Both the position numbers and the translations under genes were made by a program. Shown piece by piece: positions 7,143 to 59,209 of a stretch of 64,000 nucleotides of DNA. The notes beneath the pieces were generated by a model that was given only the letters and a program-made list of their open reading frames with translations, was not told the origin of the DNA and searched no databases. The stretch spans positions 1 through 64,000 of the forward strand of contig NZ_PVWF01000001.1 in NCBI RefSeq assembly GCF_003003995.1, in the 5' to 3' direction. Numbering within the stretch: position 1 is the first letter of the stretch; each line of letters starts with the position of its first letter. The DNA comes from Pleurocapsa sp. CCALA 161. GTDB lineage: Bacteria > Cyanobacteriota > Cyanobacteriia > Cyanobacteriales > Xenococcaceae.

Positions 7143-7223
7143 CAAATCAAGATTATTCCTATTGCTATGCCTAGAATCTTAACTCCAAGTCAACTGGTGG
7201 AAGAAGTTGATCTCGTAGAATGA
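7143..7223 (+). pseudogene. decayed C-terminal copy of a VapC-like toxin
   Basis: Reading from 7143 to the TGA at 7221 gives a peptide ending RILTPSQLVEEVDLVE. The intact PIN-domain toxin at 7616-8041 ends TILTPSQLIKEVELNLVD. The nucleotide match is close over about 60 bases and both copies are followed by a related repeat (7231-7248 and 8105-8122). It is the tail of a lost or truncated second copy, upstream of the intact pair. Confidence 0.75.
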
Positions 7224-7349: not shown

Positions 7350-7619
7350 ATGCAAGCGTACAAACTAACAGGAAAAATTGATTACTCTGGTAAATTAGTT
7401 ATTACCGAGCCTACTAATCTTAAACCTGGCGATGTAGAAGTTATTATTTTACAGTCAGCTACAATAGAAAACAAATTTATCAATGATGAACAAATAAAAC
7501 AACGTCCATCAAAAGTGAAAATATTTCAAGACTGGTTTGCTAAGACTGAGCCAATATCTTCTGATTTTACGTCCGATGATGCTAAGTGGGATTATTTAAA
7601 AGAAAAGCATAACCTGTGA
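7350..7619 (+). CDS. VapB-like antitoxin partner of PIN toxin
   Basis: 89 residues. The N-terminal half is a beta-rich swapped-hairpin-like segment (KLTGKIDYSGKLVITEPTNL, then KPGDVEVIIL) as in many cyanobacterial antitoxins. The C-terminal half is polar and likely wraps the toxin (FQDWFAKTEPI...AKWDYLKEKHNL). Its stop overlaps the toxin start by four bases (GTGA), the usual translational coupling of type II toxin-antitoxin pairs. It is probably autoregulatory with the toxin; no clear operator was found. Confidence 0.75.
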   Translation: MQAYKLTGKIDYSGKLVITEPTNLKPGDVEVIILQSATIENKFINDEQIKQRPSKVKIFQDWFAKTEPISSDFTSDDAKWDYLKEKHNL

Positions 7620-8041
7620 AAGTTTTATTGGACACCAATGTAATTCTAGACTTTGCACTAGAACGTTACCCGTGGTTTGCAGACAGCGAACAGATTATCT
7701 ATTTTGCTGAACAGAAACAGATTCTAGGTTATGTTTCAGCCTCTACTATCAGCGATATTTATTACATAATTAGAAAAAGCAAAAGTAAAGAACTTGCTTT
7801 AGAGTTTCTGCTCAATCTTTCTATTTTTTGCCAAATTGCTGCTGTTGATAGTTCAGTAATATCTATGGCACTAAATGTTAACTTTAAAGATTTTGAAGAC
7901 GCAATTCAATACAGTACTGCGATGATGAATGGTTTAAATATTATCGTTACTCGTAATCCTCAAGATTTTCCTGTTTCCATACCTACAATCTTAACTCCAA
8001 GTCAACTGATTAAAGAAGTTGAACTTAATCTCGTAGATTGA
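7616..8041 (+). CDS. vapC: PIN-domain toxin, VapC family
   Basis: 141 residues with the PIN-domain pattern: first acidic residue Asp6 in LLDTNVILD, the middle DIYYIIRK helix, and the later acidic pair in FKDFEDAIQYSTA, followed by IIVTRNPQDF. VapC toxins are Mg-dependent endoribonucleases that cut tRNA or rRNA when the antitoxin is lost. The start is GTG at 7616, overlapping the antitoxin stop. A decayed copy of its 3' end lies at 7143-7223. Type II pair assignment is strong; the RNA target cannot be read from sequence. Confidence 0.88.
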   Translation: MKVLLDTNVILDFALERYPWFADSEQIIYFAEQKQILGYVSASTISDIYYIIRKSKSKELALEFLLNLSIFCQIAAVDSSVISMALNVNFKDFEDAIQYSTAMMNGLNIIVTRNPQDFPVSIPTILTPSQLIKEVELNLVD

Positions 8042-8122: not shown

Positions 8123-8228
8123 ATTAGGTTTTTCGCTCTAAGTAACGAAATTTAATTCTTGAACAAAATCAAAATTATTGTGTGTTGGGCTTCAATCTTT
8201 AACCTAATCTAAGATGTCGGCGATCGCA

Positions 8229-8777
8229 CTACAGATCAGCGATCACTAAAAAATCTTTTATTTTCGGTAGCGTCTTGTCACCAATACCACATCGTTGTTT
8301 GGTTAAAAAATTAAGGCTGGTAATTTTATTTTTTTTTCTATATTCAACTATTGATTTAGCTGCTTCTTTAGGCTTAATAGTACTCACCCCATATTTCTGA
8401 GTTTTAATATATTCCAGCACTTCCACAATATCTTTTTCTAATGCAGTAAGAATTGGCAGCCGAATAATTTTTCCTGATTCAACTAAAACTTGATTCAGCA
8501 TTTGATTGTTGATAACAATACACCAAACAAAATTTAAGTTTGCTTTTTTTGCTGCTTCTAGTATTTGGGTATTTTCAATTGCTTTGTAGTTATCCTCTGA
8601 AACAAGTTCAACCATTACAGGCAAAATATTTTTACCTGTAGTTTCCATCTGTTTAGCTAAATTTTTAATTAATGCTGGATGTGCGTCGGATTTACCTTGA
8701 ACAAATTTACTAGGTATGCGTAGAATACGACCAAGTTCAATATCTAAAAGAGATTCGTTTTCTGTAAAAAGTGCCAT
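8229..8777 (-). CDS. ParB-like nuclease/CTPase-fold protein
   Basis: 182 residues. The N-terminal 100 residues follow the ParB/Srx N-terminal fold: a basic strand with IPSKFVQG, the HPALIKNLAKQM helix, NILPVMVEL, and then YKAIENTQILEAAKKANL where classical ParB has the GHRR box. The consensus GxxRxxA arginines are replaced, so CTP binding may be lost. The C-terminal part has a small helical domain, possibly a helix-turn-helix or HhH-like segment (GIGDKTLPKIKDFL). It starts 13 bases after the ParA-like gene, so the two form one operon and probably act together. The gene is far shorter than chromosomal ParB. Confidence 0.7.
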   Translation of the reverse strand: MALFTENESLLDIELGRILRIPSKFVQGKSDAHPALIKNLAKQMETTGKNILPVMVELVSEDNYKAIENTQILEAAKKANLNFVWCIVINNQMLNQVLVESGKIIRLPILTALEKDIVEVLEYIKTQKYGVSTIKPKEAAKSIVEYRKKNKITSLNFLTKQRCGIGDKTLPKIKDFLVIADL

Positions 8778-8790
8778 AATTTAATACCTC

Positions 8791-10247
8791 TTAATTATCT
8801 ATAAAATGATGACCGAGAAAAATTTCATCTGCTAACTGTTTATAAAGTTTAGTGATTGGAGAATTTTGCCAACAGATAACAGGTAAGTGTTTATATTCAG
8901 CTAATTTGGTTTGAGCATAAATTGCTAATCTAGTCTGACATTGATAACCTGTAAATCCTTTATTTTTTAGTTCTTGTTGAATACATTTTTCAAGTTGAGA
9001 GTCTGATGCGACACCAGGAGGACAATTACTAAATACTATTCCCAAATTCCAAGGACCAATATGTAAGTAATTTTGCTTAACTCTATTTTGTCTAATAGTC
9101 AAAGCATCTTTTTGATATAGATCTACAGCATGATGCAATGTCTTTTTACTGTAGTCTGAAGGAATTAAAAAGTATCACAAGAAAGAAGTGTTGCAATTGT
9201 TAAAGGATCACTAGCTGGAGATATATCTATAAAAATATAGTCGTAATCTTCAGTAAATAATTTAATTATTTTTTGGAATAATTGTATTTTTTCACGTTGA
9301 TCATATTCGGTTGCATTAGTTTTAAATTTCTCTTGAGATTTTTGTTCACCTGGGAGAATAGATAAAGCAAAAGATTTTTTATCTGTAGTGCGATAATTAC
9401 GAATTTGAACAGTATCATCAAGAATCTGTTTGGCATCATCTAAATGACCCGCTTGAATTTTTTTCAAAGATAGTTCTAGATACTCTGAATAATTTTTAGG
9501 TTCTAATCCTAAAGCTCTAGTTAAATCATTTTGTGTATCTAAATCGAGTAATAAAACTTTTTTGCCTTCTAATGCTAAGACTGAAGCTAAGTTAAGCGTA
9601 TTAGTGGTTTTGGCGACTCCTCCTTTGCGATTCCAGATAGCACTAACTAATGCTTTGGGTTTTCCATATAAGCAATATTCTAATTGCTGCATTAATTCAG
9701 GAATAGTTGATTCTGTCATTCTTTGAATTGGTGTTAATGGCAAAATTAAACCATCAACTCGTCGCCAAAGTTGAAAAAAGTCACCATTAAAAACTAATCC
9801 GTAAGAAGCTAAACGATTAGGATCGATATTATTGTTACTTTTATTTAGGTATTGTTTGATGCCATTTTCTATTGGAGAATCCTTATAGCCTACAGCATTT
9901 TTATATAGTTGATGTTTTTGACATTCATCAATAAAGTCTTGATCATCAACAGTTGCTAAACTTGATACACGTTTTTTTATTTCGATTACCAAAGCTGGAG
10001 GTTTATCTAAATTTGGATAAATTAGTCTATCTGGTTTTAATCCCGATCCTATACCCAAGTGAATATTTAATATTTGACTAATTTCAAGATTTAAAGATAA
10101 AAGTAATGGTTGAATAAAGTTAAGTTCTAAATTTTGTTCCGCGTAATCATTCGGAAGACTTTTCCAAATTTGAATTATATTATCGTAAGATATTTTATTT
10201 AAAGTAGTTGCTAGCATGAGGATAAATTTGAAGTGTAATATACTCAA
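8791..10247 (-). CDS. PD-(D/E)XK-like domain fused to ParA ATPase, split by a -1 frameshift
   Basis: The first frame (10247 to a TAA at 9165) encodes 360 residues. Residues 20-170 resemble the N-terminal domain of type I restriction HsdR-like proteins, with PD at 72-73 and E89-x-K91 (VIEIKKR), i.e. a PD-(D/E)XK nuclease pattern. From about residue 200 follows a ParA/MinD ATPase with the deviant Walker A KGGVAKTT and LLLDLDTQNDLT. The frame ends at SCDTF, but in the -1 frame the ParA fold continues without a gap (LIPSDYSKKTLHHAVDLYQK) to 8791, giving about 485 residues. The break is at a run of five A (9167-9171, T5 on the coding strand). It may be a programmed slip, a recent mutation or a sequencing error. 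A ParB-like gene follows by 13 bases. Possible roles are plasmid-like partition or defence. Confidence 0.75.
9163..9173 (-). other. frameshift site inside the ParA-like gene
   Basis: On the coding strand ACT-TTT-TAA puts the stop directly after a Phe codon in a T5 run. Slipping one base back after TTT re-reads TTA-ATT-CCT and restores the ParA frame. The slip keeps TTT paired with TTT, so the site is mechanically suited to -1 slippage. Confidence 0.6.
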
Positions 10248-10480
10248 TATTCCCCAAACTCAAATTAAAGTAACCAAAAAATAGATTAAAAATAATTTAA
10301 CTAGATCGAAACAGAAGTAATACTGTAATTAAGTATTCATTTTCTAAAAACTATGAAGGTTTTGGTATATCTAAACGATCATCAATTCTGGCTGCGATCG
10401 CCTTTTGGATCGCGATCGCTATAAATACTTAATCTCTGCAATTGCTGACATTAAAATAAACATGATTTGGGAGTGAGAAA

Positions 10481-10702
10481 CTACACTAAATATAAAACTG
10501 CTTTTTTACCTAAAACACTAAGTGTTAGTTTAAGTTCATCTTTCAGGTTACGTACAATCTTCAACTTATCTCCATAATAGAGAGTTACATGGCTACCTTT
10601 ACTGCGCTTTCTATCAACACGAGATTCAAGACCATTGACTTTTGCTAATTTTTTGACTTTTTTAACAAACTCATTCCCTCTCATTGTCACATTTTCGGAC
10701 AT
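10481..10702 (-). CDS. hicA: HicA-like mRNA interferase toxin, possibly decayed at the end
   Basis: 73 residues with the small dsRBD-like HicA fold: helix GNEFVKKVKKLAK, the motif KGSHVTLYYGDK containing the catalytic histidine, and a final helix. The end (LKLTLSVLGKKAVLYLV) deviates from the usual GTL..ILKQLG helix, so the C-terminus may be altered. HicA toxins are ribosome-independent mRNA interferases neutralised by HicB. No intact hicB is next to it. Downstream on the same strand (about 10362-10410) one frame reads AARIDDRLDIPKPS, which resembles a HicB-type tail and may be a remnant. The start ATG sits inside a perfect 20-bp palindrome (10694-10713). Confidence 0.65.
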   Translation of the reverse strand: MSENVTMRGNEFVKKVKKLAKVNGLESRVDRKRSKGSHVTLYYGDKLKIVRNLKDELKLTLSVLGKKAVLYLV

Positions 10703-10713: not shown

Positions 10714-10818
10714 GTGATTGAAGATTTAGAATATGATGTAGGAGATACGATATCAGTATTATTTGGTGAACGTGATGATTCTCTTTCTGCGAGAATAGCG
10801 GTTAGACTACCTGTTTAA
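10705..10818 (+). CDS. very small open frame before the RND gene
   Basis: 37 codons, starting MSEVIEDLEYDVGDTISV and ending ARIAVRLPV. It begins inside the palindrome at 10694-10713, diverges from hicA and ends 6 bases before the RND transporter start. It is acidic and may be a leader peptide, a decayed remnant or a chance frame. No family recognised. Confidence 0.3.
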   Translation: MSEVIEDLEYDVGDTISVLFGERDDSLSARIAVRLPV

Positions 10819-20230: not shown

Positions 20231-21676
20231 ATGATATTTAAAACATCTCAAACAGAAAAAGAAATTTATAATTTAAGTAATAATTATTTAGCAAGAATAC
20301 AAGACTTAGATATAAAATTAGCTGATTATTATTCTAATAAAATCAAAGTTGAGACAAAGTTAAATAGAAAAATTGTCAGTTTTCAAGCAAATAAGAATAT
20401 TAACTACTATAGGTGGTATAAGTATAAAGAGGCATTTTCTGAAGATTTAACTCAGTATTTAGCTAATGAATATTGTCAAAATAAAGGGAAAATATTAGAT
20501 CCTTTTGCAGGAGTGGGAACAACTCTATTTTCTTGTTCTAAATTAGGTTTTAATACTGAAGGGATAGAAGTTTTACCTATAGGTCAGTATGTTATTGAAG
20601 CTAATATTATTGCTAGAAATATAAATAGTCAAGATGTTATTAATAGATTAAAGTTTTGGAAAATTCAAAAAATATGGAATTTCAAAGGAGATATTAAAGA
20701 ATTTGGAATTATCCCTATTACTGAAGGAGCTTATCCAAAAGATACAGAGTACAAAATCAAAAGATATTTAGCAGAATTAGAGTTAGAAGAACCAATACCA
20801 AGAAAAATTTTATTTTTTGCTCTATTGTGTATTTTAGAGTCAGTTAGTTTTACTCGAAAAGATGGTCAGTATCTTCGCTGGGATTGTCGCTCAGGAAGAA
20901 GACCAGAGAAAAATACTTTTAATAAAGGTAAAATACTTTCTTTTGACGAAGCAATAATAAATAAGTTTGATGAATTTATTCAAGATATTTTTGTTGGAGA
21001 TAGTAATGAAGATATTTTTTCTTATCTAGAAAATAAGCACAAGCGAGGTAAAATTAATATATTTAAAGATTCTTGTTTGAATATATTACCCGATCTTAAA
21101 ACTCAAAGCTATGCAGGAATTATTACATCTCCTCCCTATTGCAATCGTTACGATTATACTAGAACTTATGCGCTAGAACACGCTTTATTGGATATAGATA
21201 ATAATGAGTTATCCTTATTACGTCAAGCAATGTTAAGTTGTACAGTTGAAAATAAGAGAAAAGATTTGCTCTCTTTAAATAATAATTGGAACAAAGCTAT
21301 AAACATTTGTGATAATCTTAATTTGCTTCAAGAAATTATTGATTACCTAGACTACAAAAAAGAACAAAAAGAATTGAATAATAGAGGGATCGTCAGAATG
21401 GTAAAAAACTATTTTTACGAAATGGCTTGTGTAATTCAGGAATGCTATCGCATTTTAGAAAAAGATAGCTTTATGTGTATGGTCAACGATAATGTTAGAT
21501 ATGCTGGTGCTTCTATTTCTGTAGATTTAATTCTTTCTAAAATAGCTGAAGATATTGGTTTTACAATAGAAAATATACTTGTTCTTCCAAAAGGAAAAGG
21601 TAATAGCTCACAACAAATGGGAAAACATGGCAGAATTTCTTTGAGAAAATGTATATATATCTGGAAGAAAGAATAG
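20231..21676 (+). CDS. DNA methyltransferase of an AvaI-like R-M system
   Basis: 481 residues. SAM-binding motif DPFAGVGTT near residue 93 and catalytic motif TSPPYCNRYDY near 297 mark an amino-methyltransferase (N4-cytosine or N6-adenine; the SPPY form favours N4-cytosine). A long variable region of about 200 residues between them should hold target recognition. The stop TAG is immediately followed by the ATG of the restriction gene, so the two are translationally coupled. The gene is AT-rich compared with neighbours and lacks HIP1 sites, signs of horizontal gain. From the partner's family the expected site is CYCGRG; this is inference. The methylase looks intact. Confidence 0.88.
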   Translation: MIFKTSQTEKEIYNLSNNYLARIQDLDIKLADYYSNKIKVETKLNRKIVSFQANKNINYYRWYKYKEAFSEDLTQYLANEYCQNKGKILDPFAGVGTTLFSCSKLGFNTEGIEVLPIGQYVIEANIIARNINSQDVINRLKFWKIQKIWNFKGDIKEFGIIPITEGAYPKDTEYKIKRYLAELELEEPIPRKILFFALLCILESVSFTRKDGQYLRWDCRSGRRPEKNTFNKGKILSFDEAIINKFDEFIQDIFVGDSNEDIFSYLENKHKRGKINIFKDSCLNILPDLKTQSYAGIITSPPYCNRYDYTRTYALEHALLDIDNNELSLLRQAMLSCTVENKRKDLLSLNNNWNKAINICDNLNLLQEIIDYLDYKKEQKELNNRGIVRMVKNYFYEMACVIQECYRILEKDSFMCMVNDNVRYAGASISVDLILSKIAEDIGFTIENILVLPKGKGNSSQQMGKHGRISLRKCIYIWKKE

Positions 21677-22636
21677 ATGCCTTATCAACAACACCTTGAA
21701 TCTTATGAATCACTAATAACACCCTATGAAGAAACAAGAGCAGGGTTTATTGCATTAGCTTTAGAAAAGAATAGAAAAGCTACACCATTTGTTGAAGAAG
21801 CAAAGGCACTTAAAATAATTGCTCAACAAACTAAAACACCAAGAGAACTATTAAATATAAAAAATATACAATCATCTTTACTTACAGCTTCTGCTATTTC
21901 AAACAAAGCAAAGAAATATCTTCGATAAGAAGATAGAAAAGAAGCTATTTTAGGTTTAATTGAAAACTTTCTCGAACCATCAGGAAAAGATTTTATTGAT
22001 GAGCTAGTTTATAGATTTTTATTAACAAAAGGAGATTCTCTTGGTGGAAGTATGAGAAACATTGGAGGTCTTTTGGGAGAATGGAAACTAACTAGAGTAT
22101 TAATATCTACTCTTTCAGTTTATGGTCAAGAATTAGAATATCTTGATATTAATCATAAAAAATGGCTTAAAGCTAGTAATGAGCCAGATTTAGAGAAAAA
22201 AGTAAAAGGACTACATTGGAAAATGGAAGGTCAAGATCGGACTCTTGTGTATAATCTAACTGTGCCTATGGTTAGAAAAAATGTTGATTTAAATTTATTT
22301 AACTGTGTACCTGAAGAAATTATTTTTGGCAACAATAAAAAATCTGTACATTACCAGTCTGAAAAATATATTGCTTTGGGTGAACTAAAAGGAGGGATAG
22401 ATCCAGCAGGTGCTGACGAACATTGGAAAACAGCAAATTCTGCTTTACAAAGAATTAGAGTTGGTTTTTCTAGTAAAAATTGCCAACCATTTACATTTTT
22501 TGTTGGTGCTGCAATTGAAAAAGCAATGGCACAGGAAATATACCAACAGCTAGAAAATAAACTTTTAACAAATGCATCTAACCTTACTAATGAAAAGCAA
22601 GTAGTATCATTATGTAGTTGGTTAATTACTCTCTAA
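21677..22636 (+). pseudogene. AvaI/BsoBI-type restriction endonuclease with in-frame stop
   Basis: One reading frame of 320 codons is interrupted only by a TAA at 21926-21928 (codon 84). Sequence on both sides is in the same frame and of family type: N-terminus MPYQQHLESYESLI, then GFIALALEKNRKATPF, after the stop IENFLEPSGKDF, GDSLGGSMRN, and the catalytic segment LGELKGGIDPAGADEHWKTA with the E-x-K pair and a nearby histidine. I recognise the AvaI/BsoBI family, which cuts CYCGRG. A single base change would restore it, so inactivation is recent or the stop is read through. An ATG at 22052 could start the 194-residue C-terminal part alone, but this would lack the N-terminal domain. The methylase upstream is intact. 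Confidence 0.8.
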
Positions 22637-49872: not shown

Positions 49873-51111
49873 ATGAAAAACAAGAGATTTCTAGGTAAAG
49901 TAGCTAGCCACGCTATAGCGCTTTTTTTAGGAGTTATTTTAACTTTTAGTACAGTCAGAGTAATGTCTTCTAAGGCTTATACTTTAGCCCCAGACAGCAC
50001 CTCAAATAATCAGCAAATTAATCCCCTTGCCCTGGAAAACGAATCAGTTCAGGCGCAAGCACCCGTAAGCACCACTTCCAGCAGCTTTGTAGCAGCAGCA
50101 GTAGCCAAGACAGGGCCAGCAGTAGTGCGTATTGATACAGAAAAAACCATTGCCAGCCAAGCTGAACCTCTATTTGAAGATCCTTTTTTTCGTGAATTTT
50201 TCGGCGATCGCTTTGGCACACAAATTCCTAGAGAAAGACAGGTTAGAGGACAGGGTTCGGGTTTTATCACCCAAAAAGACGGGATTATTTTTACTAATGC
50301 TCACGTAGTTAGTGGCGCAGATCGGGTGAGCGTCACCCTCAAAGACGGCAGAGAGTTTGCTGGAATAGTTAAGGGTACTGATGAAGTGACCGATCTTGCC
50401 GTAGTTAAAATTGAAAACCCCTCAGGAGACTTACCTATTGCCCCTTTAGGTAATTCCGCTCAGGTTCAGGTAGGAGATTGGGCGATCGCTGTAGGCAATC
50501 CTGTCGGTTTAAATAACACCGTAACTTTAGGAATTATCAGCACTTTAACTCGTTCTTCAGCACAGGTAGGTATCCCCGATAAGCGCATTGACTTTTTGCA
50601 AACTGATGCCGCTATTAATCCTGGTAACTCTGGTGGCCCATTATTAAATGAACGAGGGGAAGTAATTGGTATTAATACCGCTATTCGCCCTGACGCTAAT
50701 GGCATTGGTTTTGCCATCCCCATCGATCAGGCAAAAACTATTACCAACACTCTGGCTATGGGGAAACAAGTTCCTCACCCTTATATAGGAGTACAAATGC
50801 GAACTATGACTCCAGAATTAGCCCGACAAAACAACAGCAACCCCAATTCTCCTTTTGCTCTTCCTGAAGTTGAAGGTGTTTTAATTGTCCGTGTTCTCCC
50901 CAATACCCCCGCCGAAGCAGCAGGTTTGCGCTTGGGAGATGTAATTACTGCCATTGATAGTCAGACAATTAATGATGCGGGACAGCTACAGTCAATAGTT
51001 GACCGCAGCGGTTTAAATAAAAGTCTTCAGTTTAATATCATTCGAGGCGATCGCCCTTTAAAACTTAAAGTAGTAACCAGTCAGCTCAAAAATATCTCTA
51101 TGACACCATAA
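49873..51111 (+). CDS. htrA: HtrA/Deg-family serine protease
   Basis: 412 residues. An N-terminal hydrophobic segment (residues 10-30, ASHAIALFLGVILTFSTV) is a signal peptide or anchor to the periplasm or lumen. Trypsin-like domain with triad His in FTNAHVV (about 143), Asp in TDLAVVKI (about 173) and Ser in NPGNSGGPL (about 252). One PDZ domain follows (VEGVLIVRVLPNTPAEAAGL). Cyanobacterial HtrA, HhoA and HhoB all have this layout; which one this is cannot be settled by eye. They remove damaged proteins under light and heat stress. A strong terminator follows. Confidence 0.94.
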   Translation: MKNKRFLGKVASHAIALFLGVILTFSTVRVMSSKAYTLAPDSTSNNQQINPLALENESVQAQAPVSTTSSSFVAAAVAKTGPAVVRIDTEKTIASQAEPLFEDPFFREFFGDRFGTQIPRERQVRGQGSGFITQKDGIIFTNAHVVSGADRVSVTLKDGREFAGIVKGTDEVTDLAVVKIENPSGDLPIAPLGNSAQVQVGDWAIAVGNPVGLNNTVTLGIISTLTRSSAQVGIPDKRIDFLQTDAAINPGNSGGPLLNERGEVIGINTAIRPDANGIGFAIPIDQAKTITNTLAMGKQVPHPYIGVQMRTMTPELARQNNSNPNSPFALPEVEGVLIVRVLPNTPAEAAGLRLGDVITAIDSQTINDAGQLQSIVDRSGLNKSLQFNIIRGDRPLKLKVVTSQLKNISMTP

Positions 51112-51132
51112 CCGAACGATAGGTTTTAAGAT

Positions 51133-51161
51133 AAGGGTGAATATAATTCACCCTTTTTTTT
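51133..51161 (+). terminator. Rho-independent terminator of htrA
   Basis: AAGGGTGAAT, loop ATA, ATTCACCCTT, then a T8 tract. Perfect 10-bp stem, 21 bases after the stop codon. Confidence 0.92.
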
Positions 51162-51416
51162 GTGATTGAAACAAGTTTAAAACCTAAATTATTGAACATA
51201 GACGCGCTTTATGTCGGAGTACAAGCAACAAGTAATTAAGGTTGTCCCCTAATTCCCTAATTCTCTAAGCCAAAATATTTAACTGTTCAACCGAACTTGA
51301 TATAACAGAGCGATCGCTTGACAGAAAATGGCATATGGTAAGATTCGACAGCTTTGTCTGTGCAAGCCCACAAATAGTATTTAAAATATCAATTACGGAT
51401 AGCTAAAAAATTGGGC

Positions 51417-53882
51417 ATGGGTGAACAAACACTAGATTGGGTGAGGTTGCAAAAAGCATTATCTGTAGAGGCAGAAAGAGGATATGCAGATTTAGTGGGC
51501 AATCAGTTTCGCTTTAGTGAGTTTCTCTGTCTGAGTCTGGGTAAGCCTCCGAGAAATATTGCTGCGACAGATAAAATGCAGTGGCATGATGTGGCGCAAA
51601 AGTTTGCCAACTATGGTCATTTAAGTTCGGCTCAAAGAAAGCAGCTAGTAATTAGTACCCGTAATTTTCTCCAACAGCAAAAAGCGATCGCGGAAACTCC
51701 TCATACTCCACCCCAGCCGAAGACTCCCCGCACCGCTACTTTAAGTAGCCCTAAGGCAAAGACTTATTTCAAACAGGAAATCAGTTTAGATCAGCCTTTA
51801 AGTCAGGTAATTGAGATTGGACGCAGGAGTAACTATCTAGAACGTTTAGGATTGTATACTGTTCGGGATCTACTGTTTTACTATCCCCGCGATCATCTAG
51901 ACTATGCCCGACAGGTGCAGATTACTCATTTAGAAGCGGGAGAAACGGTCACGGTAATTGGCACAGTTAAAAGCTGTAAATGTTTTAGTAGTCCGAAAAA
52001 TAAACAGCTAACGATCTTTGAATTAATCCTCAGTGATGCGACAGGAAGATTAAAGCTGAATCGCTTTTTAACAGGGGCAAGATTTAGTAATCGGGGTTCT
52101 CAGGAAAGATATAAAAGTCAGTATCCTGTCGGCTCGATTGTAGCAGCATCAGGACTGGTTAAACAGAATAAATATGGCATTACCCTAGATAAGCCTGAAA
52201 TAGAAGTTTTAGACGGCGCAGGGGCGAGTATTGAATCTATAAAAATTGGTCGGCTTTTACCCGTATACCCTTTAACAGAAGGAGTCCCTGCCGATACGGT
52301 GAGAAATTCAGTGATTGCTGCTTTACCTGCTGCTGCTCAATTGAGCGATCCTTTGCCGAGGGAATTACGGAATCTTTATGGCTTGATTAAATTAAAAAAT
52401 GCGATCGCCTGCATTCATTATCCCGAAAATAACGAAGAACTCGCCCATGCTCGACGAAGATTAGTATTTGATGAATTCTTTTATCTTCAACTGGGCTTTC
52501 TCCAGCGTCGTCAACAGCTTAAGCAAAATCAGTCCAGCGCCAGTTTTACACCCCAAGGAAAATTAATTGAAAAGTTCAATTGCATACTACCTTTTGTTCT
52601 CACTAATGCCCAGCAGCGAGTGATTCAAGAGATCTTTGAGGATTTAGCTAATGCTGATACGCCGATGAATCGTTTAGTGCAGGGAGATGTCGGTTCAGGC
52701 AAAACTATTGTGGCAGTATATGCGATCTTGGCAGCAATTCAATCAGGTTATCAGGCTGCATTAATGGCACCAACAGAAGTACTAGCAGAACAGCACTATC
52801 GTAAATTAGTGGCTTGGTTTAATTTGTTACATCTCCCTGTGGAATTGCTCACAGGTTCAACTAAAACCGCCAAACGTCGCGAGATTCATTCCCAACTGCA
52901 AAATGGAGAATTGCCGTTGCTAGTGGGAACTCATGCCCTAATTCAAGAGCCAGTAAAATTTAATCAGCTTGGTTTAGCGGTAATTGATGAGCAACATCGT
53001 TTTGGAGTTCAGCAAAGAGCGCGTCTATTAAGTAAAGGCAAATCTCCCCATGTCTTGACCATGACGGCGACACCAATTCCTCGAACTTTGGCTTTAACCC
53101 TTCACGGCGATCTCGATGTCAGTCAGATCGATGAATTACCCCCTGGTAGACAAAAGATTGAAACCATGATGAAACAGGGCAAGGATCGCAAAAAAATCTA
53201 CGATCTAATTCGTCGTGAAATCGCCCAAGGTAGACAGGCTTATATTATTTTTCCTCTGGTAGAAGAATCCGAAAAGTTAGACCTCAAAGCAGCTACGGAA
53301 GAACACCAGCGTTTATCAGAAGTTATTTTTCCTGAGTTTAGTATTGCTTTGCTACATGGTCGCATGAGTTCTGCTGATAAAGATGCAGCTTTAACTTCTT
53401 TTCGCGATAATAAATGTCAGATTATTGTTTCAACTACGGTAATTGAGGTAGGAGTAGATGTTCCTAATGCAACGGTAATGGTCATTGAACACGCCGAACG
53501 TTTTGGTCTATCCCAATTGCACCAGTTACGGGGACGAGTGGGTAGGGGTGAAAGTAAATCCTATTGTTTTTTAATGAGCAGCACCAAAAATATTGAAGCC
53601 AGACAGCGTTTAGCGGTACTAGAAGAGTCTCAAGACGGGTTTTTTATTTCTGAGGCGGATATGCGCTTTAGGGGTCCTGGTGCGGTATTAGGTACTCGGC
53701 AATCAGGACTACCCGATTTTGCCCTGGCAAGTCTAGTAGAGGATCAGGAGGTGCTTAATTTAGCCAGAGAAGCAGCCGAGAAAATTATTGCTGCGGATCA
53801 GCTATTAGTTAATTCTCCATCTTTAAAACAAGAGCTAGAAATTCGTTATCGTCGTTTGATGGGAGGCGATATTTTGAATTAA
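51417..53882 (+). CDS. recG: ATP-dependent DNA helicase RecG
   Basis: About 821 residues; ATG 51417 is chosen, and TTG 51411 two codons earlier is possible. Replication-fork and Holliday-junction remodelling helicase. The N-terminal extension of about 130 residues, common in cyanobacteria, precedes the wedge/OB domain (IGTVKSCKCFSSPKNKQLTI). The helicase core has QGDVGSGKTIVAVYA (Walker A, near 425), VIDEQHRFGVQQR (DEQH), TMTATPIPRTL, STTVIEVGVDVPNA and HQLRGRVGRGE. The C-terminal FRGPGAVLGTRQSG is RecG-specific. It is full length and intact. Confidence 0.97.
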   Translation: MGEQTLDWVRLQKALSVEAERGYADLVGNQFRFSEFLCLSLGKPPRNIAATDKMQWHDVAQKFANYGHLSSAQRKQLVISTRNFLQQQKAIAETPHTPPQPKTPRTATLSSPKAKTYFKQEISLDQPLSQVIEIGRRSNYLERLGLYTVRDLLFYYPRDHLDYARQVQITHLEAGETVTVIGTVKSCKCFSSPKNKQLTIFELILSDATGRLKLNRFLTGARFSNRGSQERYKSQYPVGSIVAASGLVKQNKYGITLDKPEIEVLDGAGASIESIKIGRLLPVYPLTEGVPADTVRNSVIAALPAAAQLSDPLPRELRNLYGLIKLKNAIACIHYPENNEELAHARRRLVFDEFFYLQLGFLQRRQQLKQNQSSASFTPQGKLIEKFNCILPFVLTNAQQRVIQEIFEDLANADTPMNRLVQGDVGSGKTIVAVYAILAAIQSGYQAALMAPTEVLAEQHYRKLVAWFNLLHLPVELLTGSTKTAKRREIHSQLQNGELPLLVGTHALIQEPVKFNQLGLAVIDEQHRFGVQQRARLLSKGKSPHVLTMTATPIPRTLALTLHGDLDVSQIDELPPGRQKIETMMKQGKDRKKIYDLIRREIAQGRQAYIIFPLVEESEKLDLKAATEEHQRLSEVIFPEFSIALLHGRMSSADKDAALTSFRDNKCQIIVSTTVIEVGVDVPNATVMVIEHAERFGLSQLHQLRGRVGRGESKSYCFLMSSTKNIEARQRLAVLEESQDGFFISEADMRFRGPGAVLGTRQSGLPDFALASLVEDQEVLNLAREAAEKIIAADQLLVNSPSLKQELEIRYRRLMGGDILN

Positions 53883-53970
53883 AGATAAATTTATTAAAAT
53901 AACTTATACATAACCAGGGCGCACGGCGATTCATCTGATAGCAAATTAAAAATAGAATGCGACACATTTT

Positions 53971-54033
53971 GTAAGGGCAAATGGCGACGCGAAGCTAACC
54001 CTTTAAAGAATCTTTTAGGGCATTCGCCCCTAC
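53971..54033. repeat. dispersed inverted repeat between recG and sdhB
   Basis: GTAAGGGCAAATG (53971-53983) and CATTCGCCCCTAC (54021-54033) pair with two mismatches around a 37-base interior that includes GCGAAGCTAA...TTTTAGGGC, words also seen inside the cobN insert at 18720-18755. It is a member of the same repeat family as 2387 and 12361. Confidence 0.65.
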
Positions 54034-54093
54034 CCAAAAATCATCTGTTGTAAACTTTAATCGAATTAATATAACTCAATAAACTAACGAATT

Positions 54094-54831
54094 ATGCAAA
54101 TTAACCTCAAAATTTGGCGACAAGAAAACCCAGAAAGCGCAGGTAAATTAGAAGAATATACCGTAGCAGATGCTCACCCCAGTATGTCGTTTATTGAACT
54201 GTTGGATGTTTTAAACGAACAGCTAATTAAAGATCATCAAGAACCTATTGCTTTTGATACTGATTGTGGTGAAGGTATCTGTGGCTCTTGTGGCATGATG
54301 ATTAACGGGGTAGCTCATGGATCACAAAAACAAACGGCGGTGTGCCAGCTACATCTTAGAAGCTTTCAAGACGGAGACACAATAACTGTTGAACCCTGGC
54401 GGGCCAAAGCTTTTCCCATTGTTAAGGATTTAGTAGTTGATCGCTCTGCTTTTGATCGTATTGTGGTTGCGGGGGGTTATGTTTCTGTGAATACTGGTGC
54501 TGCACCCGATGCCAATTCCTTACCTGTGGCTAAAGAAAATAGCGATCGCGCTTTTGATTATGCAGCTTGTATCGGTTGTGGTGCTTGTGTTGCCGCCTGT
54601 CCTAATGCTTCTGCCTCCCTCTTTACCGCAGCTAAAGTTGCTCATCTAGCTTTACTTCCTCAAGGCGCTCCCGAACGCAAACAAAGAGTTTTAAATATGA
54701 CCGCCCAAATGGCAACAGAAGGTTTTGGCGACTGTTCTAATCATGGGGAATGCACGGCTGTATGTCCCAAAGGCGTACCTTTAGAGGCAATTTCTGCCAT
54801 GCGTCGGGAATATATCAAGGCGATGTTTTAG
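54094..54831 (+). CDS. sdhB: succinate dehydrogenase/fumarate reductase iron-sulfur subunit
   Basis: 245 residues. N-terminal [2Fe-2S] ferredoxin domain with CGEGICGSCGMM and a later Cys in AVCQLH. C-terminal domain has CIGCGACVAACPN and CSNHGECTAVCPKG for the [4Fe-4S] and [3Fe-4S] centres. It passes electrons from the flavoprotein SdhA to the quinone pool at the membrane. Cyanobacterial SdhB genes usually stand apart from sdhA, as here. Its last 17 bases overlap the convergent GST gene. Confidence 0.95.
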   Translation: MQINLKIWRQENPESAGKLEEYTVADAHPSMSFIELLDVLNEQLIKDHQEPIAFDTDCGEGICGSCGMMINGVAHGSQKQTAVCQLHLRSFQDGDTITVEPWRAKAFPIVKDLVVDRSAFDRIVVAGGYVSVNTGAAPDANSLPVAKENSDRAFDYAACIGCGACVAACPNASASLFTAAKVAHLALLPQGAPERKQRVLNMTAQMATEGFGDCSNHGECTAVCPKGVPLEAISAMRREYIKAMF

Positions 54832-55504
54832 TTAGTCTTGATTGCTTTTGCTGCCACTGTCTTGCTCTAATTTTTGGCAATTTCTGGATACGCTTGAACC
54901 AATCTTGAATAACTTCGGGGTTGGGTTGGGTTTCTTGCCAAGTTGGGCGTTGCTTTAATTGATTAGACCATAATTCTACTTTGGGATGATTTGAGAAAGT
55001 GACATTTAAATCAGGCAACCAAATAATGACCGATCCTGCAACAATTTCGGCTAGGCTAATTTGATCTCCAGCAATATATAAACCATCGTCAAGCTGCGTC
55101 TCTAAAAAATTAAGCATTGCAGTTATTTGCTGGTTAGCCTGATCAATCGCATTTTCGTTGTTAGTTACACGAATCAGAGTGAGCATAGCTGGAATCAACT
55201 CATGTAGTGTCAGCATTTCTATCATTCGGACAATAGTTAATGTTTTAATATCTTTGGGTAAAAAGCAAGGAGTTGGATACTTAAGTTCGAGATAGTTCAA
55301 AATGCTTGAAGATTCAAAGATAGAAAAGTCGTTATCTACTAGTACAGGAACACGCCCAAAAGGGTTGATTGCTAAAAACTTAGGCTGCCATTGATCTCCA
55401 TCAAGTGCTAATTCAATTAATTCAAAGGGCAGTTTTTTTTCTAGTAATGCAATCCATACAGAACGAGAATACAGTGAAAATTTTTGATAGTAAAACTTCA
55501 GCAT
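54815..55504 (-). CDS. glutathione S-transferase family protein
   Basis: 229 residues. Thioredoxin-like N-terminal domain starting MLKFYYQKFSLYSRSVWIAL, the cis-Pro in FGRVPVLVDND and the ESSSILNYLE motif that binds the gamma-glutamyl part of glutathione. The C-terminal helical domain has GDQISLAEIVAGSVI, the N-capping motif of GSTs. The Ser in SLYSRSVW is the likely active residue. Cytoplasmic; the substrate is unknown (detoxification or an isomerase). Its stop overlaps the sdhB stop on the other strand. Confidence 0.92.
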   Translation of the reverse strand: MLKFYYQKFSLYSRSVWIALLEKKLPFELIELALDGDQWQPKFLAINPFGRVPVLVDNDFSIFESSSILNYLELKYPTPCFLPKDIKTLTIVRMIEMLTLHELIPAMLTLIRVTNNENAIDQANQQITAMLNFLETQLDDGLYIAGDQISLAEIVAGSVIIWLPDLNVTFSNHPKVELWSNQLKQRPTWQETQPNPEVIQDWFKRIQKLPKIRARQWQQKQSRLTKTSP

Positions 55505-55571
55505 AAGATTTATGGTCAGCTAATTTCGTTAATTGAGTGGAAATAGTTTATTCTTTTGCTTTAATTAACAA

Positions 55572-57536
55572 TTATTTTGGGCATTGATTTTGAGCCAACT
55601 TGGTAGCAGCCTGATTTAGATAAAGTTGACGTTGACCGTTAATGATGTATGCTGGGCTTGCTCCTTGGGGAAGATTGAGAGCAAGAGGATCGCTATTGTC
55701 ATTGGGTTGGCGTAGAAAATCAGTCAGAAATACCACAGGGCGATCGCTATCCCAGTAAGTTTGTAGTTCAGTTTGAGTAATTAAATATTCAGGAGAAGAG
55801 CCAGGAAACTCTGGAGGAATACGGTTCTTGCCACCGTCAGCAAGAATTAATACAGTACGGTAGGTACTGTTAGCCACGGTAGTCCATCCTGATTCGGCTC
55901 TATTTTGGTGATAATCTTTGGTTTTGCCCTGATTAAGATAATAGCCAATCGCTCCTGCTGCACCAATTTCTCGCGATCCTTCATAGATCCAAAGAGTGTC
56001 GATACTAAGACAAGCATTTGCCTGTTGGACAAGATTTTTGGATGAGCGAATATCTTGATAGATTGCAAATCCTCTAATTGTAGTCAGATAAGTGAGCATT
56101 AAGACGATGACCAATGGTAACCAAGCCCAAGCAGAACGTTTGAGCATGGCAACTCCTGAAGCGAGACAGCCTGTTCCTAAAGAAATCGCCACAATTATCA
56201 TTAACCTAGAAATTTCTGCCGTTTGCAACAACTCAGGTAACAGGTTTACTACACTAGGTAAGAATGTAATCAAACCATAGCAGGTAACTCCTAAGATTAA
56301 AGCGATCGCACCATATAGATCTACTGTTTTAGTTGAGAGAACCTGATTTGCCACCTGCGCCGAGGATTTACAAAGAGTAACGATTGCAGCAGGATAGACA
56401 GCATTAGATGTTGAGTAGCCAACAAATGTAGAGGACGTTCCTAGAGATTGAACTTTAATTTTAGTTGGACGATAACGCTTTGACCACCAGCCAGCACACA
56501 GGATAATGTAGGGAGGAATAGCAGGAATACTATAGTAAATTAGGCGAGAAGAAAGGGGGAGAAACAAAATTATCGGTAAAATTGCAGCGGAAGCTAGTAA
56601 GAAGATGCCGTCACTATTTTTACGATCTAAGAGAGAAGCATTAGCTAGAAATCCTCGCTGCCAATCTTGAGTAGCCGATTTAATTACCGAGGGCAAAAAT
56701 AAGACCCAAGGAAAGCACCAGCAGGCTGTAATTGCTAAATAACCAACGGCGCTAACTTTAGAAACTTCGTAGTCTGGAGGATAACGGCGATCTAATAGCC
56801 GATCAAAATGTTCGTTAACAATAAAATAGTGCCAAAAACCAGGATTAGCTCGCTCTACCGCAATAAACCAGGGGAGAATAATTGCCAGCATTAATAGTAA
56901 CCCTTGATAGATTTTAATGCGTCCTAAAATTTTGAAATCTCGTCGGACAACAATTAATCCTAAACATCCTAGTAGTGGAAAAACCACCCCAATTAATCCT
57001 TTAGTCAAAACACATAAAGCCAGAGAAATATATGTTCCCCACCAGTTGAGGCGATGGGGTTGATAAAGCGATCGCCAAAGAAAATAATTGCTACTAACCA
57101 GCAATGTCGCTAGTAAGGCATCAATTAAGATTTGATGGGTAAAAATAAACCAGCCGAGAGTTACAGAAAGCATTAACGCAGCAACTCGACTAGAATCAAT
57201 ACCCCAAAGTTCTCTCGTCCATTTCCAGGTAATAACTATGCCGATCCAGCCAGCTAGACCAATAGGTAGTCTAGCAGCAAACTCGGTTGAACCAAAAATC
57301 CCTGTGGTTAAGGCAATCAACCAATATAATAGGGGTGGTTTATTGAGATAGGGTGAACCATTGAGGTGAGGAGTAACCCAATCATGTCGCCACAGCATTT
57401 CTTGACCAACCATGGCAAAATGACCTTCATGGGGTTCATATAATCCATAGCTACCAATACCCAAGAGCGTTACTATTAATGCCAGTAAGAGAATCGAAAT
57501 ATCGACCCAGTATAGATTTTTAATAGTAAATCGCAT
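55572..57536 (-). CDS. GT39-like membrane glycosyltransferase (ArnT/PMT type)
   Basis: 654 residues with about 11-13 transmembrane helices. After the first helix the periplasmic loop has YEPHEGHFAMVGQEML, where ArnT/PMT-family enzymes carry the catalytic acidic residues, followed by PYLNKPPLLYWLIAL. A long C-terminal soluble part (about residues 500-654) faces the outside. Family members use polyprenyl-phosphate sugars to modify lipid A, proteins or glycans. Donor and acceptor are unknown here. It is the same direction as the GST gene but 67 bases apart. Confidence 0.85.
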   Translation of the reverse strand: MRFTIKNLYWVDISILLLALIVTLLGIGSYGLYEPHEGHFAMVGQEMLWRHDWVTPHLNGSPYLNKPPLLYWLIALTTGIFGSTEFAARLPIGLAGWIGIVITWKWTRELWGIDSSRVAALMLSVTLGWFIFTHQILIDALLATLLVSSNYFLWRSLYQPHRLNWWGTYISLALCVLTKGLIGVVFPLLGCLGLIVVRRDFKILGRIKIYQGLLLMLAIILPWFIAVERANPGFWHYFIVNEHFDRLLDRRYPPDYEVSKVSAVGYLAITACWCFPWVLFLPSVIKSATQDWQRGFLANASLLDRKNSDGIFLLASAAILPIILFLPLSSRLIYYSIPAIPPYIILCAGWWSKRYRPTKIKVQSLGTSSTFVGYSTSNAVYPAAIVTLCKSSAQVANQVLSTKTVDLYGAIALILGVTCYGLITFLPSVVNLLPELLQTAEISRLMIIVAISLGTGCLASGVAMLKRSAWAWLPLVIVLMLTYLTTIRGFAIYQDIRSSKNLVQQANACLSIDTLWIYEGSREIGAAGAIGYYLNQGKTKDYHQNRAESGWTTVANSTYRTVLILADGGKNRIPPEFPGSSPEYLITQTELQTYWDSDRPVVFLTDFLRQPNDNSDPLALNLPQGASPAYIINGQRQLYLNQAATKLAQNQCPK

Positions 57537-57736
57537 TTTCGGCTATTTTATTTTATTTAATAGATATTTTAGTCGCATCATGGTCAATTCTCGAAAATAC
57601 TCAATTACTCAATCTAGTTTCAGGGGCAAGAGTTGTTTTTTCATTTAGACTGGCAATTTTTCTAGTAGAGTCGATCCCTGTTTATAGATAAACTTAAGTA
57701 ATAGTTATTTCATACCAAGGATTGATTACAAAGAGG

Positions 57737-59209
57737 ATGCAAATCAAAGCAACTGAGCAAGCATTATTAGACTGGACTGGAGATCTGCTAGCAGTGGGTA
57801 TTACTGAGGGTGAAACAAAGCTCACAGGAGATTTGGCAACCCTCGATGAAAAATTAGCAGGGACAATTGCTGATTTAATTGCTGAAGATGAGTTTGAAGG
57901 TAAATCTGGCACTACCGTAGTTGGTCGTGTGGGTGGTAAAAATACCGTGCGTAAAATTGCTTTAATTGGTTTAGGCAAAGCAGAGGATTTAACTATCAAT
58001 AGCTGGCGCAATGCTGCTGCGGAAATCGCCCGTTTAGCTAAGAAAGAAAAAACGTTGGGGATTAGTCTACCCCTTGGTTCAGCATCCGCTCCAGATGTCG
58101 CTCAGGCAATGACTGAAGCAATTATTTTAGCACTTCATGAAGACAATCGCTTTAAGTCTGAACCAGAATCAAAAAAACCAAAACTAGAGACTGTCGAACT
58201 AATTGGTTTAGCAGGACAAGACGAGGCGATTAGTCGAGGTTCAACCATCGCCGATGGCGTGATCTTAGCTAGGGAATTAGTTAATGCTCCAGCCAACGAA
58301 GTTACCCCTGTAACTATGGCCCAAACAGCGCAACAGTTAGCCACAGACTATGGTTTAGAAATTAAGATTTTAGAAGCAGCCGACTGCGCTCAGTTTGAAC
58401 AGGGGATGGGGGCATATCTTGGGGTAGGACAAGCTTCAGAAATTCCCCCCAAGTTTATTCATCTGATTTATAAGCCTCAAGGAACAGCAAAACGCAAGGT
58501 AGCGATTGTGGGTAAGAGTCTCACCTTTGATTCTGGTGGTTTAAACCTCAAGCCTAGCGGTAGCGGTATCGAAACCATGAAGATGGATATGGGTGGCGGT
58601 GCTGCTACTCTGGGGGCAGCTAAAGCGATCGCGCAACTTAAACCAGATACCGAGGTTCACTTTATCTGTGCAGCGACAGAAAATATGATTAGCGGCAAGG
58701 CAATGCACCCAGGAGATATCCTCAAAGCTGCTAACGGCAAGACAATTGAGGTTAACAATACTGATGCTGAGGGCAGATTAACCCTAGCCGATGCCTTGAT
58801 CTACGCTGAAACTTTAGAAGTAGATGCGATCGTCGATCTGGCTACTCTTACAGGTGCTTGCATTGTCGCTTTAGGTAACGATATTGCTGGGTTGTGGAGT
58901 ACTGATGATGCTTTGACAGCAGAAATGAAAGCGGCTGCGGAATCAGCAGGAGAAAAATTCTGGCAGTTGCCCATGGAAGAGAAATATTTTGAAGGCTTAA
59001 AGTCGCAAATTGCTGACATGAAAAATACTGGACCTCGTGCGGGTGGCTCAATTACGGCAGCACTATTTCTCAAGCAGTTTATCAAGGATACACCTTGGAT
59101 GCATTTAGACGTGGCAGGTCCAGTTTGGGCAGAGTCTTCTGGAGGGATTAATAATAAAGGAGCCACTGGTTTCCCTGTAAGAACTTTAGTTAATTGGGTG
59201 AGCAACTAA
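57737..59209 (+). CDS. pepA: leucyl aminopeptidase (M17)
   Basis: 490 residues starting at ATG 57737 ([20 protein letters not shown], as in cyanobacterial homologues); TTG 57722 in frame is less likely. Hexameric cytosolic dizinc peptidase that removes N-terminal residues. The N-terminal macro-like domain is followed by the catalytic domain with [20 protein letters not shown], the signature [17 protein letters not shown] with the metal ligands, and [17 protein letters not shown]. All metal-binding Asp, Glu and Lys positions appear intact. Confidence 0.96.

Follow-up and report, generated by a model that had tools for sequence, protein, structure and literature searches.

ParA ATPases transport cargo on DNA. 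In ParABS systems the ATPase (ParA/Soj) is paired with ParB/Spo0J, a protein whose CTP-binding motif is of the GERR type. The PD-(D/E)XK fold of restriction enzymes can act as a DNA-binding part without cleavage. To our knowledge, no ParA ATPases carrying restriction-type nuclease domains are known. In the accessible part of a survey of ParB-fold fusions (PMC12704722), Pfam gathering cut-offs were applied and the ParB-DUF3850 fusion is given as the only one consistently found beside a parA homolog. Keyword searches of one open-access library returned no description of a ParA-HsdR-N fusion, which may nevertheless have been described elsewhere. We analysed a stretch of 64,000 nucleotides from Pleurocapsa sp. 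CCALA 161 (contig NZ_PVWF01000001.1, positions 1 to 64,000; hereafter the window). On its minus strand, 8229–10247 encodes first a PD...E-x-K domain, then a ParA ATPase whose deviant Walker A reads KGGVAKTT, and last a ParB-like protein. The combination of ParA with HsdR-N is real as a family, unusual, and wider than the window alone shows. The features of the window locus and its neighbours are as follows.

9165–10217, minus strand: front part of the gene for the ParA-nuclease, running from ATG 10217 for 350 codons to a premature TAA at 9165–9167
9699–10217, minus strand: predicted HsdR-N/PD-(D/E)XK-type N-terminal domain; D63, E79 and K81 in ATG numbering
9168–9644, minus strand: first portion of the ParA/AAA_31 ATPase with the KGGVAKTT Walker A motif (AAA_31 E 2.7e-24, in the front part)
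9167–9168, minus strand: one-base deletion (frameshift) relative to genome G012, from the alignment with G012 and the reading frames
8791–9162, minus strand: back part of ParA, 123 codons plus stop in the -1 frame, codon-conserved
8229–8777, minus strand: partner of the ParB/sulfiredoxin fold with a C-terminal ComEA-like helix-hairpin-helix, 182 aa, intact
8167–10297, no strand assigned: the one block common to the window and G012 at 89% identity with differing flanking genes, the unit that moved
7350–7619, plus strand: neighbouring RelN-like antitoxin (NF050107, 26.3 bits, E 8e-6; below the cut-off of 70)
7616–8041, plus strand: neighbouring PIN-domain toxin (PIN_3, E 1.6e-20)
10481–10702, minus strand: neighbouring HicA-like gene (sub-threshold HicA match, E 0.037)

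The original prediction, made from this DNA alone, had described one large protein joining an HsdR-N-like domain to a ParA ATPase, with a ParB-like gene 13 bases behind it. The domains and their order stood, and the ParB-like gene does start 13 bases past the end of the ParA gene, but the two domains do not share a single reading frame: a one-base frameshift had been overlooked, which closes the front part at the TAA and leaves the rest of ParA in the -1 frame. In the alignment with the 89%-identical copy of G012, the closest relative found, a single A is absent from the window between 9168 and 9167. The G012 product is an unbroken 475 aa and is 82% identical to the window front part. The window copy has no complete ATPase domain, its frame being lost after codon 350. 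The front part could alternatively begin at TTG 10247, but ATG 10217 is the likely start because it coincides with that of the G012 copy; residues D63, E79 and K81 counted from it are D73, E89 and K91 in the earlier numbering. Between the window and G012, the N-terminal domain has a dN/dS of 0.23 and the first part of ParA one of 0.31; past the break the value is 0.18, and in the partner it is 0.09. The genes are thus under purifying selection. Since substitutions are mostly silent both upstream and downstream of the break, the window copy appears either to be recently broken or to reflect a sequencing error in the draft genome. Programmed frameshifting at ACT TTT TAA was rejected because the T run has just five bases and intact relatives need no shift. 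The window's own genome yielded no second fusion copy; three further weak matches lie mainly over the ParA part. The window copy is a broken example only, and the intact relatives are the ones worth studying.

Profile comparisons place the N-terminal domain in the HsdR-N/PD-(D/E)XK type. The absence of any nuclease-fold match had been named beforehand as refuting this assignment, and relatives of the window did give profile matches: HSDR_N_2 was matched by all 12 clade B domains (E up to 0.05), and among the 16 clade A domains HSDR_N was weakly matched by five (E up to 0.5; best E 5e-4) and MmeI_N weakly by four. The window's own domain, a member of clade A, had no Pfam match by itself. The two clades are about 30% alike and were joined by hhalign with a probability of 98.9% (E 3e-17), by which the predicted assignment exceeds chance. 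A distant third protein, L019, combines HSDR_N_2 (33.2 bits) with AAA_31 and adjoins a ParB_N-like partner. The active-site D and E-x-K, present in the window, are retained in 30 of 31 relatives from the two clades; the D, the E and the E-x-K lysine are invariant in all 16 rows of the clade A alignment, and E-x-K was recognised by eye in 44 of the 45 proteins of the tree set, which overlaps partly with the 31. The lone exception, L100/L211, has lost both D and E-x-K, with both of its genes still open. Protein L095/L186 did not enter the active-site count, owing to the missing Walker A pattern of its open reading frame; a stop-to-stop reading shows that D and E-x-K are both retained. In an AlphaFold model of the intact relative L006 (mean pLDDT 79.3), a helix at 37–51 is followed by D74 right before strand 75–77, E90 within strand 87–91 and K92 right after it. 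Structure searches with the whole model, in which the N-terminal domain was included, gave ParA-type ATPases and no solved nuclease among the matches listed, so that the nuclease fold assignment rests on sequence profiles; profile searches with the N-terminal domain gave no solved nuclease structure.

The ATPase part is of the ParA type. The deviant Walker A pattern K-G-G-x-x-K-[ST] was present in 31 of 32 proteins; the remaining one, L095/L186, reads QGGVGKTT, with the first lysine lost, and a standard start codon is missing ahead of its N-terminal domain. The ParA part of L006 superimposed on Soj with a Z of 26.8 (rmsd 2.5 over 251 residues), and McdA was also among the fold matches of this model.

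The ParB-like identity of the partner was borne out by a structure model of the window protein (mean pLDDT 86.4), which matched ParB with a Z of 11.4 (rmsd 2.7 over 84 residues); ParB, Noc and PadC were among its top Foldseek matches. With Z values up to 11.4, the predicted ParB fold is beyond chance. Residues 105–180 resemble the ComEA helix-hairpin-helix (Z 7.3 over 63 residues; HHH_3 E 1.3e-4, below the HHH_3 cut-off), and this element probably takes the place of ParB's parS-reading helix-turn-helix. Pfam ParB_N was not matched by the window's partner and was sub-threshold in some relatives, where the matching partners scored 15.1–23.9 bits against a cut-off of 26.3. Both clade B partners scanned, which come from plasmids, have an added Rho_N domain. 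The arginines of the CTP motif were not visible by eye in the partners, which show N-T-x-I-L-x-A-A where G-E-R-R is expected; at the N terminus they carry an LG-(R/Q)-h-L stretch.

We found the partner gene in 42 of 386 cyanobacterial genomes with a clade A profile (E up to 1e-5) and in 44 of 386 with a broader one (E up to 1e-8). It occurs in 11 of the 12 genomes of genus g68; the ParA fusion is present in 2 of the 13 genomes of the window's genus. Two other phyla, represented by 345 and 296 genomes, gave no match to the partner profile in a search that had no positive control there. Among 19 carriers in few contigs (shown with at most 10 in rounded figures; G132 has at least 11), 18 have the match on a contig of 1.7–6.8 Mb and one, G132, on plasmids. 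In the single-contig genomes G230 and G369 the match lies on contigs of 1.7–1.8 Mb, and in G172 and G371 of genus g68 the module is on a chromosome-sized contig. Four of the 18 megabase-contig carriers have damaged or incomplete modules: the ParA gene is split by an insertion sequence in G077, G149 has a partner fragment only, G162 a short partner, and G065 has no standard start and is missing the first Walker A lysine. Where this can be judged, the family is mostly on chromosome-sized contigs, and it is scattered across cyanobacterial chromosomes and plasmids. The homologues are thus not found only on plasmids beside replication genes. For the same reason, a relic of a plasmid, which the original prediction had offered as an alternative, is rejected as the whole answer: it is possible for the moved piece and fits the decay of the window copy, but does not describe the family.

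The module is a compact two-gene operon, often with overlapping genes. The 44 loci that were fetched hold 45 modules. Both genes are complete in 39 of these, the incomplete ones being L143, L186, L192, L197, L203 and the first of the L199 pair; because the loci were selected for a match to one gene, and L182 and L183 repeat plasmids that had been read before, 39 of 45 is not a survival rate. In the tree of the 45 proteins the six plasmid copies stand at several places, with five label changes required, and cluster no more than shuffled labels do (132 of 500 shuffles were as low). A phage origin was rejected: every one of the 80 viral-contig matches examined, out of 299 relatives, leaves the query uncovered ahead of residue 149, so that the complete N-terminal domain is seen in none, and the two matches in phage records concern the ParA part only.

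Seven plasmid records matched at least 80% of the query and six were read, the seventh, from Leptolyngbya boryana dg5, agreeing with pLBA in length and in where the match lies. Another partition system is present on four of these six: Nostoc p10 and Pseudanabaena pPg_01 have a canonical ParA-ParB pair besides the module, and Nostoc p9 and p4 have ParM/StbA (on p4, within the first 13 kb). On ABRG53g, which has CyRepA1, the module is the sole annotated partition candidate, and on pLBA no other partition gene is annotated within 1–50000 and 54468–77793. In pPg_01, read except for 50001–57951, the gene order ahead of the module, with a rep-like gene, some small genes and a gene for transfer, largely resembles that of ABRG53g, and pPg_01 may therefore be a co-integrate of two plasmids. 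The annotation HsdR N-terminal domain is also given to two stand-alone proteins of pPg_01 (L346:42192–42803 and L348:12167–12883), one within a type I-D CRISPR operon and one near a MazF-type toxin. The module-bearing pLBA has a terminase gene (L345:13179–15317), a hint of a phage-plasmid.

Genomes G003 and G002 match the window flanks at 85–95%; the similarity ends at 7147 and 7106 and resumes at 10781 and 10785 on different contigs, which continue with other sequence. The window site accordingly reads as a rearrangement point carrying the module together with toxin-antitoxin neighbours, not as a clean insertion. Chromosomal modules sit scattered among unrelated genes, as judged by eye. An insertion hotspot at valS common to G012 and g68 was considered and dropped, the g68 neighbour reading by eye as a methionyl-tRNA synthetase. 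The module had been predicted to lie between two toxin-antitoxin loci. On one side this was upheld by the antitoxin-like and PIN genes at 7350–8041, but on the other the HicA-like gene at 10481–10702 is alone and sub-threshold, and the window's list of open reading frames has no HicB-like frame beside it.

By our own reading, which took in 57 proteins from flanks and 69 from control sites, all of 60–200 aa, 8 of 21 module loci and 1 of 40 control loci have toxin-antitoxin genes no farther than 2 kb away (one-sided Fisher p 0.0005); without the window the figures are 7 of 20 versus 1 of 40 (p 0.001). When only Pfam-listed toxin families are counted, with loci assigned by us, the figures are 6 of 21 versus 1 of 40 (p 0.005), and 5 of 20 without the window (p 0.013); the six loci have PIN (three), YhaV, PemK and BrnT. 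Of the 21 contigs, all but the window's carried control sites (20 contigs), placed at offsets of one third and two thirds. Pfam bore out the toxin-antitoxin families in part. Among the Pfam families listed (25 of 37, 25 of 60), the module set includes at least PIN, YhaV, PrlF, PemK, BrnT, HicB-like, RelB-like and DUF433, which we take to be a toxin-antitoxin family; the control set includes, among those listed, a Gp49-like protein, and further control matches may exist. Toxin-antitoxin genes thus look enriched near modules.

Across 48 loci, ParA and the partner were each present at 47. Neighbouring families comprised an ABC-transporter cluster (6 of 48 loci), DUF29-type (4), HicB-like (3) and integrase (3); the remainder are common mainly within genus g68, and none is general. 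The neighbours common to at least three loci include no obvious cargo gene, no HsdM or HsdS and no methylase family, and HsdM and HsdS were not seen by eye among the window's open reading frames between 4000 and 16000; a methylase-like neighbour was noted by eye at L190. The system may have the anti-plasmid, anti-phage or selfish-maintenance role that the original prediction had proposed: toxin-antitoxin genes look enriched nearby, but PADLOC returned for the window proteins two PDC-M28B candidate models only (E 1e-5 and 0.006), whose matches span 34–38 P-loop residues of the front part; the partner matched nothing.

Several other genes were observed near modules. At 20231–22636 in the window, about 10 kb from the module, a gene of low G+C for a DNA methyltransferase-like protein (481 aa) precedes one for a 194-aa protein presumably similar to AvaI/BsoBI restriction enzymes; the two may form a restriction-modification pair. 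In genus g68, what by eye is an IscB-type RRXRR-like gene directly precedes the ParA-nuclease gene at two loci (L185:3666–4763 and L191:7795–8940), being divided into two pieces at L191. Beside the module with the lost nuclease site, at L211:8669–10446, an AAA ATPase gene is followed by what by eye is a DUF4276-like gene, a PARIS-like layout.

At 25 of 27 loci, no 8-base word occurs three or more times within the 250 bases upstream of parA, a result compatible with a single or distant site; the two loci with upstream repeats are L142 and L211. Among the 27 loci, the clearest centromere-like candidate is a 21-base repeat present about seven times ahead of the ParA gene that G058 carries on its chromosome (L142, upstream of 10118). 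A search for an operator shared by the upstream regions found none: the commonest words are A/T runs, the top 6-mer being found at 17 of 33 loci against up to 17 in 100 shuffles. The 7-mer ATTTTTT occurs upstream at 12 loci versus at most 11 in shuffles. The recurring A/T words are taken as base composition.

The cassette is not simply a plasmid relic, and as a partition system it is no more than a candidate. Our leading interpretation, held tentatively and somewhat short of probable, is a nuclease-armed ParA/ParB-like cassette for DNA maintenance or DNA conflict in which the predicted nuclease would be active. The partner would bind DNA without strict sequence, as suggested by its helix-hairpin-helix and by the Rho_N tails of clade B; ATP-bound ParA, judging from the two folds, would dimerise on DNA and meet the partner; and the nuclease domain, the active site of which is conserved, would thereby be brought to DNA to nick or cut competing or unprotected molecules, making the cassette an ATP-gated maintenance or conflict device. 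Counted for this interpretation are the conserved D and E-x-K, the HSDR_N_2 and HSDR_N matches and the clades joined by hhalign; the many complete modules, their patchy spread, scattered sites and the several places of plasmid copies in the tree; and the further partition systems carried by four of the six plasmids together with nearby toxin-antitoxin genes. Counted against it are the position of the module as the only annotated partition candidate on ABRG53g, the lack of a methylase family at three or more loci, PADLOC matches confined to the P-loop, the near-universal partner in g68, which is unusual for a defence gene, the site loss in L100/L211 with open genes and the Walker A loss in L095/L186, and the capacity of a PD-(D/E)XK fold to serve in DNA binding only. 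A more specific form of the nuclease-armed interpretation is more doubtful: a cyanobacterium-centred DNA-conflict module in which ParA, steered by the helix-hairpin-helix ParB-fold partner, would deliver the PD-(D/E)XK nuclease to competing DNA. Such a module might be a partition machine turned weapon or a self-policing segregation device, and we regard this description as no less doubtful.

Divergent plasmid partition, which we consider rather unlikely, would have ParA move plasmids over the nucleoid and the partner bind a centromere, with the HsdR-N domain a silent nuclease fold of DNA-binding or regulatory use only; chromosomal copies would, on this rather unlikely account, be captured or decoy partition loci. 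The ParA gene followed directly by a ParB-fold gene is what such a system would look like, and the partner's LG-(R/Q)-h-L stretch is reminiscent of the LG-R/K-GL ParA-binding motif given in the accessible part of PMC12704722, but a helix-hairpin-helix probably replaces the ParB helix-turn-helix and the active-site residues would not need keeping. The L142 repeat speaks for partition at one locus, against 25 of 27 loci without a thrice-occurring word; the sole partition-like genes of ABRG53g are likewise set against the four plasmids with other systems (of which pPg_01 may be a co-integrate), and the intermixing of chromosomal and plasmid copies in the tree against the 18 of 19 few-contig carriers with the match on a megabase contig. 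A host function that has to do with neither plasmids nor conflict, for example positioning or repair of a polyploid chromosome, is improbable: it would suit the near-universal, chromosome-sized-contig occurrence in g68 (G172, G371) and the large contigs of G230 and G369, but the module is patchy elsewhere (44 of 386 genomes), several copies are broken, and insertion sites differ by eye. Quite improbable, finally, is a selfish addiction cassette resembling toxin-antitoxin or restriction-modification systems, in which the nuclease-ParA would be harmful, the partner would restrain it and loss of the cassette would be punished. The compact, often overlapping gene pair, the toxin-antitoxin genes nearby, the conserved active site, the lowest dN/dS in the partner and retention in 11 of 12 g68 genomes are in keeping with addiction; the broken nuclease gene beside an intact partner in the window, and the split ParA gene of G077, imply however that loss of the nuclease is tolerated.

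If the family does cut DNA under ParA control, as the nuclease-armed interpretation would have it, plasmid segregation would be linked to DNA conflict, and cyanobacteria would offer a testable two-protein system. Compared with known systems, the module resembles type I restriction HsdR-N/HSDR_N_2 domains and MmeI_N in its predicted PD-(D/E)XK-type N-terminal domain with conserved D and E-x-K. It differs from type I restriction enzymes in having no helicase motor, the motor being a ParA ATPase, and from type I restriction-modification systems in that no HsdM or HsdS was recognised by eye beside the module in the window. With the ParB-CTPase-fold fusions in the accessible part of PMC12704722 it shares a partner in which a ParB/Srx fold is joined to another domain; the ParB-HhH combination was not found among the fusions in that part, and since the partners score below the ParB_N cut-off, the survey may have missed them. 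McdAB and other ParA positioning systems likewise consist of a ParA-type ATPase and a small partner gene, but the module has a nuclease-type domain and, among neighbours common to at least three loci, no obvious cargo gene. The module departs from ParABS in its HsdR-N nuclease-type domain, in the helix-hairpin-helix after the ParB fold of a partner whose CTP-motif arginines are not visible by eye, and in the scarcity of upstream repeats (none at 25 of 27 loci), while it shares with ParABS the ParA/Soj fold, the KGGVxKTT Walker A motif and the adjoining ParB-fold gene.
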